Translations under genes and position numbers: made by a program
IMG/VR virus record: IMGVR_UViG_3300044645_000191
Location: 1 to 23,563 of that record
Length of the DNA: 23,563 nucleotides
Direction: 5' to 3' (one strand)
Source of the DNA: a virus
Notes under the pieces: generated by a model
The model's database searches: none
Told to the model about the DNA's origin: nothing
Seen by the model: the letters and a program-made list of their open reading frames with translations, nothing else
Shown: positions 9,293-10,926 of the stretch, piece after piece
Numbering within the stretch: the stretch's first letter is position 1
Layout of the letters: each line of letters starts with the position of its first letter

Positions 9293-9922
9293 TTATATTA
9301 ATTTATCTAAATCCTTGTTTTCTCTGATTGCTTTTAAAATAAACAATTTCCAAATTTTATTCTTGGTCTTGGCTCCAACGCTGGTCTCGTCTACATATCT
9401 CACCGTCAAGCGTAATTCTTTTCTAACGTCGTTCTCCATCTCTTCCACATTAAACTCCCAAGGCTTTAAAATTCCTTTTTCTTGAAACTTGTTAAACCAG
9501 TTCATGCCCCATTCTGAAATGTCTAAGCAATACCCTGTCTCCTTGGCATATTGGTAATTTTTTCTAAAAATCTGTTTACCAACCTCAATCCAGTAGGCAA
9601 TCTCTTCGTTAGTTAGTTCGCTTTCTTTGTTGTTTAAAGCTTGGACTTCTTGCACAATTTGGCTTTGGTGGTGGGCATAATATTGATTTATCCAAACGCT
9701 AACTGTCTTCTCGTTTACGTGGTAAAAATCTCCGTATTGCCCTCGCATTCCAGCGTGCAAAATGTAGTCAACTCTTGCTTCTGTCATCCAGCCGTAGCTT
9801 CCAAATAATTTACTGAGGCATCCAAGTAATTCGCTTGCCTCTTCCTTTTTGTATTCTTTAAACTGCTTAAGTCCGCATACAAACTCCATCTTTCGGAGGT
9901 GCGTTAATATTATCTCATTCAT
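9293..9922 (-). CDS. Hypothetical phage protein (209 aa) after the replication protein
   Basis: I do not recognise a named family. The protein looks mostly helical, with Trp- and Tyr-rich stretches (GSYGWMTEARVDYILHAGM, GDFYHVNEKTVSVWINQYYAHHQ), a middle segment NEEIAYWIEVGKQIF and a Lys/Glu-rich C-terminus. No Walker motif is visible, so it is not an AAA+ helicase loader of the DnaC type. Its start overlaps the end of the DUF4373 gene by 8 nt, and the pairing suggests it works with that replication protein, perhaps as an accessory or loader, which is inference from position only. Confidence 0.75.
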   Translation of the reverse strand: MNEIILTHLRKMEFVCGLKQFKEYKKEEASELLGCLSKLFGSYGWMTEARVDYILHAGMRGQYGDFYHVNEKTVSVWINQYYAHHQSQIVQEVQALNNKESELTNEEIAYWIEVGKQIFRKNYQYAKETGYCLDISEWGMNWFNKFQEKGILKPWEFNVEEMENDVRKELRLTVRYVDETSVGAKTKNKIWKLFILKAIRENKDLDKLI

Positions 9923-10658
9923 TGTTTAGGTGTTTTTGTTTTTGTAAATCCTCGTAAAGTTCGTCGAAAACATTTTTACTCTTGCTTTCTTTTTTTGGTA
10001 CTGGGTTGCCTCTTTTTACCCAATTAAAAAAATGCTCCTTGGCAAGCTTTTCGTTTTCTTTAAAATCAGCCTTTAAGATACATTCTTGCCTAAAGGTATT
10101 CAAATGGTTTTTAACTTCTGTTAAATCTGCTTTCCAGTTGATTGCCAATCCTTCAAGCCAAATGTTGTTATTCCATAATTGACGAAAAATCGCATTATGT
10201 GAATCCTCATTTACTTTGATTTCTTTTTCTTTAATTTCTTTTACTTTACTTTCCTTTAATTGCATTGCATCCGCATTGCGTTCGCTATGCGTTTGCATTG
10301 CGTTCGCATCAATGTCTCGATTCCAGCGTTTCTTGGCTGATTCTCTTGCTTTTTCTGAGCGCTCTTCCTTCAATTCCATACGCTTTAATAGGCTTTCAGA
10401 CCAAAAATATTGCTCGTCTAATTCAAATAAATCAAATTCATTAATTAGCTTTTTTATGCAATCTTCATGCGTTTGCAATGCGAATGCAATGCCTTTGTAA
10501 TGCGTTCGCATACGAAAGTCGCTTTCATTTCTAAGCATCTCAATTATTGCCCAAAACAAACCATACCCCTCCCAACCCATTTCCATCCTTAGCTGGAGAA
10601 TCTTTGGGTCATCTTTGGCATTTGAATCGTGGGAAAAGTAATAAGCTTCTTTTTTCAT
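9915..10658 (-). CDS. DUF4373 (Lin1244/Lin1753-type) replication protein
   Basis: This is a probable replication initiator-type protein. The N-terminal ~100 residues match the DUF4373 winged-helix-like domain: YYFSHDSNAKDDPKILQLR, then MGWEGYGLFWAIIEMLR and FELDEQYFWSESLLKRM. A basic linker follows (ARESAKKRWNR), then a low-complexity charged segment (residues 134-152, LKESKVKEIKEKEIKVNED) and a helical C-terminus. Proteins with this domain often sit where other phages have DnaD-like or O-like initiators. Two clusters of 11-bp DNA repeats lie inside the gene, at codons for residues ~50-68 and ~117-133, and the charged segment is encoded by an A+T-rich tract. A predicted terminator ends within 3 nt of its ATG. 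Confidence 0.85.
   Translation of the reverse strand: MKKEAYYFSHDSNAKDDPKILQLRMEMGWEGYGLFWAIIEMLRNESDFRMRTHYKGIAFALQTHEDCIKKLINEFDLFELDEQYFWSESLLKRMELKEERSEKARESAKKRWNRDIDANAMQTHSERNADAMQLKESKVKEIKEKEIKVNEDSHNAIFRQLWNNNIWLEGLAINWKADLTEVKNHLNTFRQECILKADFKENEKLAKEHFFNWVKRGNPVPKKESKSKNVFDELYEDLQKQKHLNNE
10265..10308. repeat. 11-bp direct repeats, cluster A (4 units)
   Basis: Four abutting 11-bp units on the plus strand: TTGCATCCGCA, TTGCGTTCGCT, ATGCGTTTGCA and TTGCGTTCGCA. The consensus is WTGCGTTYGCA. The 13-mer GCATTGCGTTCGC is present twice, at 10273 and 10295, 22 bp apart. A period of 11 is not a multiple of three, so repetition of the protein sequence does not explain it. Confidence 0.8.
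10456..10510. repeat. 11-bp direct repeats, cluster B (5 units, first one degenerate)
   Basis: Five abutting 11-bp units on the plus strand: ATGCAATCTTC (weak), ATGCGTTTGCA, ATGCGAATGCA, ATGCCTTTGTA and ATGCGTTCGCA. ATGCGTTTGCA is identical to one unit of cluster A. The last unit is close to a palindrome (TGCG-TT-CGCA). Confidence 0.8.
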
Positions 10659-10660
10659 AT

Positions 10661-10697
10661 AAAATAAAAAACCCCAACAGGTGAGAGACTGTCGGGG
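10661..10697 (-). terminator. Rho-independent terminator / attenuator before DUF4373 ATG
   Basis: CCCCGACAG (10697-10689), loop TCTCTCAC, CTGTTGGGG (10680-10672) form a continuous 9-bp stem with one G-U pair, followed by TTTTTTATTTT (10671-10661). The DUF4373 start codon is only 2 nt further on. A strong terminator so close to a start codon suggests regulated read-through rather than simple operon ending. Confidence 0.8.
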
Positions 10698-10752
10698 CAG
10701 GTTAAGTTAACCTATGGAATCATTCTTGCCTCTCACCTCAGGAATGATTCGA
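10661..10752 (-). ncRNA. Predicted kissing-loop leader RNA or small RNA
   Basis: This ~92-nt transcript is predicted from promoter, hairpins and terminator. Hairpin 1 has a perfect 9-bp stem, GAATCATTC (10750-10742) with GAATGATTC (10725-10717), and a 16-nt loop. A 13-bp palindrome, GGTTAACTTAACC, lies at 10712-10700. Hairpin 2 is the terminator stem (10697-10689 with 10680-10672) with the 8-nt loop UCUCUCAC. All eight loop bases can pair with GUGAGAGG in the loop of hairpin 1: seven Watson-Crick pairs and one G-U. This predicts a kissing complex, or an alternative helix competing with the terminator. It could be a free small RNA or an attenuating leader of the DUF4373 gene. I do not recognise a known riboswitch. 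Confidence 0.65.
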
Positions 10753-10756
10753 TACA

Positions 10757-10784
10757 CAAATATAAATCTTTTTAATTTATCCAA
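10757..10784 (-). promoter_or_regulatory. Bacteroidota-type promoter for the structured RNA
   Basis: TTG (10784-10782), 17 nt, then TATATTTG (10764-10757) on the minus strand. The expected start point, 5-7 nt downstream, is at the first base of hairpin 1. The -33 TTG lies inside the last codons of the 49-residue HTH gene. Confidence 0.65.
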
Positions 10785-10926
10785 CGAGACAACGCTTCTT
10801 TAGTTGAAAATAAATACAACCGTAGGATAGTCCCATTTCGATGGCAATAACCTTAATTGGTTTTCGGTCCTGCCAGCCTTCAAAAATTAACTCCTTTTGA
10901 TGTTCAGTTAAATTGCGGCCTCTCAT
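10777..10926 (-). CDS. Small helix-turn-helix protein (49 aa)
   Basis: The frame starts at ATG 10926, overlapping the TGA of the PD-(D/E)XK-like gene in an ATGA junction, and ends at TAA 10777. The body, LTEHQKELIFEGWQDRKP followed by IKVIAIEMGLSYGCIYFQLKKR, reads as a complete homeodomain-like helix-turn-helix of the kind found in sigma region 4 and resolvase tails. It is short enough to be a single DNA-binding unit. The gene's 3' end carries the -33 element of the promoter at 10757-10784, so it lies directly next to the structured RNA and could regulate it. That link is inference from position. Confidence 0.7.
   Translation of the reverse strand: MRGRNLTEHQKELIFEGWQDRKPIKVIAIEMGLSYGCIYFQLKKRCLVG

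Follow-up and report, generated by a model that had tools for sequence, protein, structure and literature searches.

A leader attenuator ahead of a replication initiator is known, as a kind of control, from plasmids. The gene regulated in this way in the Staphylococcus plasmid pT181 is the replication initiator repC, and the copy-number RNAs that control replication in ColE1 (RNA I/RNA II) and R1 (CopA/CopT) act through kissing loops, of 7 nt in ColE1, in which changes of a few bases give new specificities. Among phage elements, P4 relies on premature termination ahead of a replication gene, and both its CI immunity RNA and the c4 antisense RNA of P1/P7 (RF01695) are small, leader-encoded RNAs that use complementarity. 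The pT181 leader carries a 5' sensing hairpin with the antiterminator and then an intrinsic terminator, both within the 5' UTR (PMC4878617), and the IsrK sRNA of prophage Gifsy-1 has its own promoter and terminator, read-through giving an mRNA and the short form acting in trans (PMC4825925).

The window analysed here is a whole virus record of 23.6 kb, in which the element is read on the minus strand, 5' to 3'. Its features, in that order, are as follows.

10782–10784, minus strand: promoter −33 element, TTG, of a Bacteroidota-type promoter (sequence)
10757–10764, minus strand: promoter −7 element, TATATTTG (TAnnTTTG), separated by N17 from the TTG (sequence)
10717–10750, minus strand: hairpin H1, with a 9-bp stem and a 16-nt loop (fold; stem covariation); its arms are GAATCATTC (10750–10742) and GAATGATTC (10725–10717)
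10730–10738, minus strand: K, AGGUGAGAG, inside the H1 loop and the exact complement of K'
10699–10713, minus strand: linker inverted repeat, AGGTTAACTTAACCT (fold)
10671–10698, minus strand: intrinsic terminator hairpin of 10 pairs with the 8-nt loop UCUCUCAC (terminator scan; fold; stem covariation)
10679–10687, minus strand: K', CUCUCACCU, comprising the terminator loop and the top of the 3' arm
10661–10671, minus strand: U-rich run, TTTTTTATTTT (sequence; terminator scan)
9915–10658, minus strand: replication initiator gene, 247 aa, with a Lin1244_N (DUF4373) N-terminal domain and a weak C-terminal match to DUF7833

Most of this layout had been proposed from the letters of the DNA before any search was made. 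The TTG-N17 promoter motif of that sequence-only reading was recovered at 10784–10757, and its −7 element agrees with the published TAnnTTTG consensus (PMC7366714); conservation of the TTG alone is uninformative, because it lies near the end of a small upstream ORF. The RNA probably has its 5' end at H1 or a few nucleotides away, and we infer that transcription starts at the first base of the hairpin. Folding returned the 9-bp first hairpin with its 16-nt loop, and the terminator scan and the sequence itself returned the strong terminator, whose U-rich run indeed stops 2 nt short of the initiator ATG (10658). The supposed 13-bp palindrome between the two hairpins is present as a repeat, but proved to be one of 15 nt, with arms AGGTTAA and TTAACCT about a central C, that folds into 6 bp with a 3-nt loop. 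All eight bases of the terminator loop do pair with the H1 loop, seven as Watson–Crick pairs and one as G-U; with adjacent stem bases counted, K and K' match exactly across 9 nt, which include the conserved 7-mer core of K (GUGAGAG, 10736–10730) and that of K' (CUCUCAC, 10687–10681). The 92-nt RNA has a folding z of −3.35. Pfam and PHROG matches bore out the location directly before a replication-initiator gene, the product of which scores E = 2e-12 with PF14297, E = 1.6e-4 with PF25200 (under its cut-off) and E = 4e-25 with phrog_2562, 'replication initiation protein'.

A 49-aa putative helix-turn-helix ORF (10777–10926, minus strand; weak Pfam support, HTH_28, E = 0.047) ends just ahead of the −7 box, so placed that the −33 region abuts its end, and sequence like it was found upstream of the elements of many relatives. 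A search of the whole window for further exact copies of K or K' found none, and a trans target elsewhere in the window was rejected, there being no second K or K' beyond chance.

Set beside the described systems, the module resembles pT181 in having what is predicted to be an antiterminator in a 5' hairpin, with an intrinsic terminator between it and the start codon of the initiator, and in its reliance on loop–loop pairing for specificity. It differs in that the loop partner is the terminator of the same RNA, and in being phage-borne, in Bacteroidota and unrelated in sequence; it is not a pT181 system, because no conserved antisense promoter was seen, the TAnnTTTG type searched for being found on the opposite strand in only 5 of 95 genes. 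With ColE1 and R1 it shares fully complementary loops with variable specificity bases, K and K' occurring in at least 17 forms, but their loops belong to two RNAs from opposite strands, whereas those of the module lie on one strand in one leader. IsrK provides the precedent for a phage sRNA whose terminator read-through yields an mRNA; unlike the module, it controls an antiterminator gene by translation activation, and in an enteric prophage. We know of no kissing-loop allele series for IsrK. The c4 and CI RNAs differ in layout, and the module has no Rfam match and its phages no tyrosine integrase (40 records). Of a standalone intrinsic-terminator sRNA, the promoter and terminator of its own are present as sequence motifs.

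The complementarity of the two loops had been called unlikely by chance. For one sequence this is too strong, since a single 7-nt loop match is not rare (19% in a loose scan of shuffles); that loop-to-loop scan is too permissive as evidence, and strict tests were used instead. For the family the statement is right. Among 78 viral loci with relatives of the initiator, the close ones having upstream DNA all show the same layout, and a second scan revealed at the same place a form unrelated in sequence, type II, so that there are two main forms, type I and type II, with a common layout. In type II, H1 has 5–6 bp and a 7-nt loop, AACUUAUUG is conserved, and the terminator has an internal loop and a 7-nt apical loop. 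Further forms, alike in layout only, occur at L072, L147, L149, L151, L155 and L157.

Scanning with patterns that did not specify the K' triplet yielded 87 loci of type I and 33 of type II, and all 120 have an exact K partner at a fixed upstream distance. In 75 of 99 unique viral upstream regions the hairpin loop nearest the ATG is matched farther upstream by an exact complement of at least 7 nt, against 2.6% of shuffled ones; the same test on 76 mostly distant homologues from bacterial genomes gave three, about the number due to chance. When loops were chosen without regard to complementarity, 34 of 44 pairs were exactly complementary, compared with 12% in an all-against-all comparison. A loop-agnostic scan, preferred to a built covariance model as being more general, was given TAnnTT[TC][GA], H1, the loop complement and a U run, with no K or stem sequences, and it found 229 modules in 5.71 Mb of fetched DNA versus four on the reversed sequence; the count covers both strands and partly overlapping loci, and since the hairpins are self-complementary it includes a few modules a second time, as their own reverse complement. 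Fortuitous loop complementarity, in what would be an ordinary terminator, is excluded by this conservation in the homologues (the strict scan, 120/120, 229 versus four, and the covariation below), and its probability is negligible.

The test of the structure that had been set beforehand, compensatory change in the two stems and the two loops, was passed. Among 27 distinct type II cores all 11 stem pairs vary on both sides, and five pairs of the loop–loop helix vary, always on both sides, with two invariant (U2-A and A6-U). The covariation score is 0.876 for type II, versus 0.207 ± 0.022 for shuffled and at most 0.164 for slid alignments, and 0.456 versus 0.147 for type I, whose loop–loop helix likewise varies on both sides; because an exact K:K' match was the criterion for choosing these cores, the 100% pairing of this helix is partly by construction, and the independent figures for K:K' are those for the 75 of 99 upstream regions, the 120 pattern loci and the 34 of 44 loop pairs. 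K is mostly GUNNNAG/U, in at least 17 different sequences, and K' is its complement; therefore position 2 is U and position 6 is A in both loops, a pattern that resembles a U-turn loop. The distance from K to K' is 45–52 nt in all elements despite linkers unrelated in sequence, and this fixed spacing fits intramolecular pairing. Type I elements retain a linker that forms a hairpin, K' starts 27–38 nt upstream of the ATG, and 123 of 124 unique elements have the −7 motif TAnnTT[TC][GA] upstream of K, at a distance specific to the family, compared with 15% of shuffled ones. Taken as comparative evidence, these results make it near certain that the conserved structured RNA and its K:K' contact are real, and as the loops change only together, the module satisfies the most stringent test that sequence can offer of an RNA tertiary contact.

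G-U pairs occur in both stems and are absent from the K:K' helix of the type I and type II sets; the transcribed strand is fixed because the terminator stem has conserved G-U pairs and is followed by the U run. It is very unlikely that the element works as DNA, as origin hairpins or a recombination site. The palindromes do adjoin the replication gene, exchange does occur at the element, and several different genes follow it, but the promoter motif, the U run, the spacing to the ATG and the strand-specific G-U pairs indicate RNA, and iteron-like repeats sit within the initiator gene instead.

A third layout was seen, by eye only, at L068 and L206, where the loop of a short hairpin (TTTGACAC and TTTGACCA, respectively) pairs within a multibranched terminator; the partner stretches are GTGTCAAA and TGGTCAAA, both sides having changed together.

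At gathering thresholds Rfam 15 contains no match for the window or for 10 homologous loci, in keeping with the earlier statement that no described riboswitch or phage RNA of this layout was known to its author; the best sub-threshold match, NsiR1 (18.1 bits versus 39), is essentially the terminator. Our literature search found no description of kissing-loop phage leaders or of this Bacteroidota phage RNA, and a DNA similarity search of annotated phages and plasmids gave no match to the element. What appears to be new is the presence of both kissing partners in one phage leader, the several sequence-unrelated versions and the allele series. The module is an undescribed, widespread structured RNA family in Bacteroidota phages, placed at the switch for the start of replication, and its loop pairs, at least 17 in number and putatively orthogonal, form a natural library comparable to what synthetic biologists have engineered from pT181.

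In the best explanation, which we hold to be slightly more likely than not (about 0.55), the element is a leader with an intrinsic-terminator attenuator that would limit, and probably tune, how much of the phage replication initiator is expressed. RNA polymerase would initiate at the TAnnTTTG promoter and make H1, with K exposed in its loop, then the linker and the terminator; the majority of transcripts would end in the U run as an RNA of about 90 nt, and read-through would give the initiator mRNA. While the terminator is half made, K could pair with K', either as a kissing complex with H1 intact or in a long-range helix for which H1 is opened; both are possible, and nested folding does not distinguish them. 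K:K' would thus be a transient antiterminator, whose undoing lets the terminator close and which would set the fraction of read-through, with H1 governing the availability of K. Such a device would be an attenuator of minimal design, its terminator and antiterminator linked by a single 7-bp loop contact.

Folding, at equilibrium and with neither pseudoknots nor RNA polymerase, gives the K:K' helix as the minimum-energy structure in 70% of type I and 80–86% of type II elements when 2–4 nt of the 3' arm are present, leaving 14–30% of elements in which it is not so even at the most favourable stage. In full transcripts it is the minimum-energy structure in 0–2%, having been replaced by H1 and the terminator (in the window, predicted energies of −22.5 versus −31.3 kcal/mol). 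K:K' in the window reaches into the 3' arm of the terminator (AGG with CCU), so that each can form only when the other is undone. The sequence-only reading had left the choice between a small RNA and an attenuator; the attenuator appears better supported than an sRNA or copy-number function, because K:K' is predicted before completion of the terminator and gone afterwards. Against it count the few copies that precede HNH or methyltransferase genes instead of replication genes, and a homologue without H1 (L163:1–1354, a short contig in a Sphingomonadaceae MAG, with the promoter and a terminator with K'), which may be either a natural deletion or an assembly artefact. Attenuation alone also leaves unexplained why there are few discrete K alleles that are repeatedly swapped between near-identical phages.

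The swapping is plain in two pairs of phages with different K. Between L115 and L119 the identity is 98.2% upstream, 98.5% over the coding sequence and only 71.6% in the element; for L041 and L042 the values are 95.5, 98.5 and 75.6%, respectively. Pairs that share K keep the element 95% identical. As the pairs with different K diverge over the element itself between near-identical flanks, the element has been exchanged as a cassette. To place the five K alleles on the tree of 47 type I initiators takes at least 17 changes, where four would be the minimum. The exchange could reflect either selection for specificity or ordinary recombination.

Both the exchange, as in L115 and L119, and the number of allele changes on the DUF4373 tree speak for control in trans, which we regard as possible but rather improbable. 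As phage copies multiply, the terminated RNA of about 90 nt would accumulate; pairing of its unoccupied K and K' loops with a nascent leader that carries the same allele would favour termination, giving an allele-specific gene-dosage or superinfection control like that of plasmid incompatibility groups. The complete lack of G-U in K:K' (120 of 120 exact) agrees with such control, as does the folded type I linker, which consists of 3 nt and a hairpin and hardly seems long enough for a kiss in cis between closed hairpins; judged from linker lengths, the finished type I RNA might keep its loops free. However, cis pairing should outcompete trans pairing in the finished RNA unless geometry forbids it, and the fixed K–K' spacing and the local concentration favour cis. 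On contigs with a second element K differs between the two, which fits action in trans but is also expected by chance with so many alleles. If true, action in trans would amount to copy-number or superinfection control in phages without prophage immunity.

That the same control serves as self-antisense incompatibility among phages that are lytic or do not integrate, with same-allele phages silencing each other's initiator during co-infection, is doubtful; if it were so, the balanced allele diversity and the cassette exchange would be its evolutionary signature. L161 and L162, from one MAG (Chitinophagaceae UBA8137), have nearly the same type II element and an identical K (ATTGCAG). They would count against allele incompatibility if truly co-resident, but co-binning of phage variants is likely.

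Prophage immunity is unlikely, because no tyrosine integrase (PF00589) was found in 40 long records, a search that covered this one integrase family, and because the element is almost absent from host genomes. The exact type I pattern occurs in none of 396 Bacteroidota host genomes, and the exact type II pattern in one of 399, a MAG with two phage contigs; on these counts an immunity locus of the P4/P1 kind, in a temperate phage or satellite, was rejected. As judged from the scans, the module is carried by hundreds of aquatic viruses of Bacteroidota. Scans of the whole or a part of each of six cultured Bacteroidota phages with related initiators (Flavobacterium phages tooticki6-1, elemoA, 11b and 1/32, Cellulophaga phage phi19:3 and Porphyromonas phage005b) did not find it.

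The placing of H1 at the predicted 5' end and of the terminator at the 3' end, with the ATG directly after the U run, would also suit a role in RNA stability or processing, in which a pseudoknotted RNA protects the sRNA, or makes a nuclease site that frees the initiator mRNA, and the pairing has no effect on termination. This reading has no obvious need for an exact complement of the terminator loop in every allele, and we think it unlikely.

To return to the candidate attenuator and the genes it would control, the module lies mostly upstream of replication initiators, of four kinds: DUF4373, DUF6291, DnaD-like (a helicase loader matching phrog_2514, E = 8e-33) and RepO-like (phrog_270). The last three resemble replication initiators, although for DUF6291 the likeness consists only of shared C-termini and weak matches to primosomal proteins. 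Each of 19 near-complete genomes has at most one coding-strand element, always before a gene of replication-initiator type. Second elements with another K precede NUMOD4-type HNH genes at four loci (L328 and L115, which are the same contig, L105 and L157); these second leaders have K GTGAGAT or TTCGCAC, and the NUMOD4/HNH-like genes were named by eye. An element also lies upstream of an HNH gene at L332 and L348, and the leader may travel with homing endonucleases. The type II element of L085 (K = GTCGCAT) is followed by a DNA methyltransferase-like gene, and the DUF4373 gene of that locus has no element. Autoregulation by the downstream protein was rejected as a general rule, the downstream proteins not all being homologous.

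Two clusters of iteron-like repeats with 11-nt spacing (GCATTGCGTTCGCAT and variants) lie inside the initiator gene of the window, at 10255–10320 and 10457–10511, and by analogy are like an origin within the initiator, in the style of lambda O. The initiators themselves look modular, with DUF4373, DUF6291 or DnaD-like N-termini joined to common C-terminal parts (DUF7833 or another), as seen in the window (9915–10658) and at L242, L243, L260, L287, L074 and L077. In L074 and L077 near-identical C-termini stand behind differing N-termini, pointing to probable domain swapping downstream of the RNA element.
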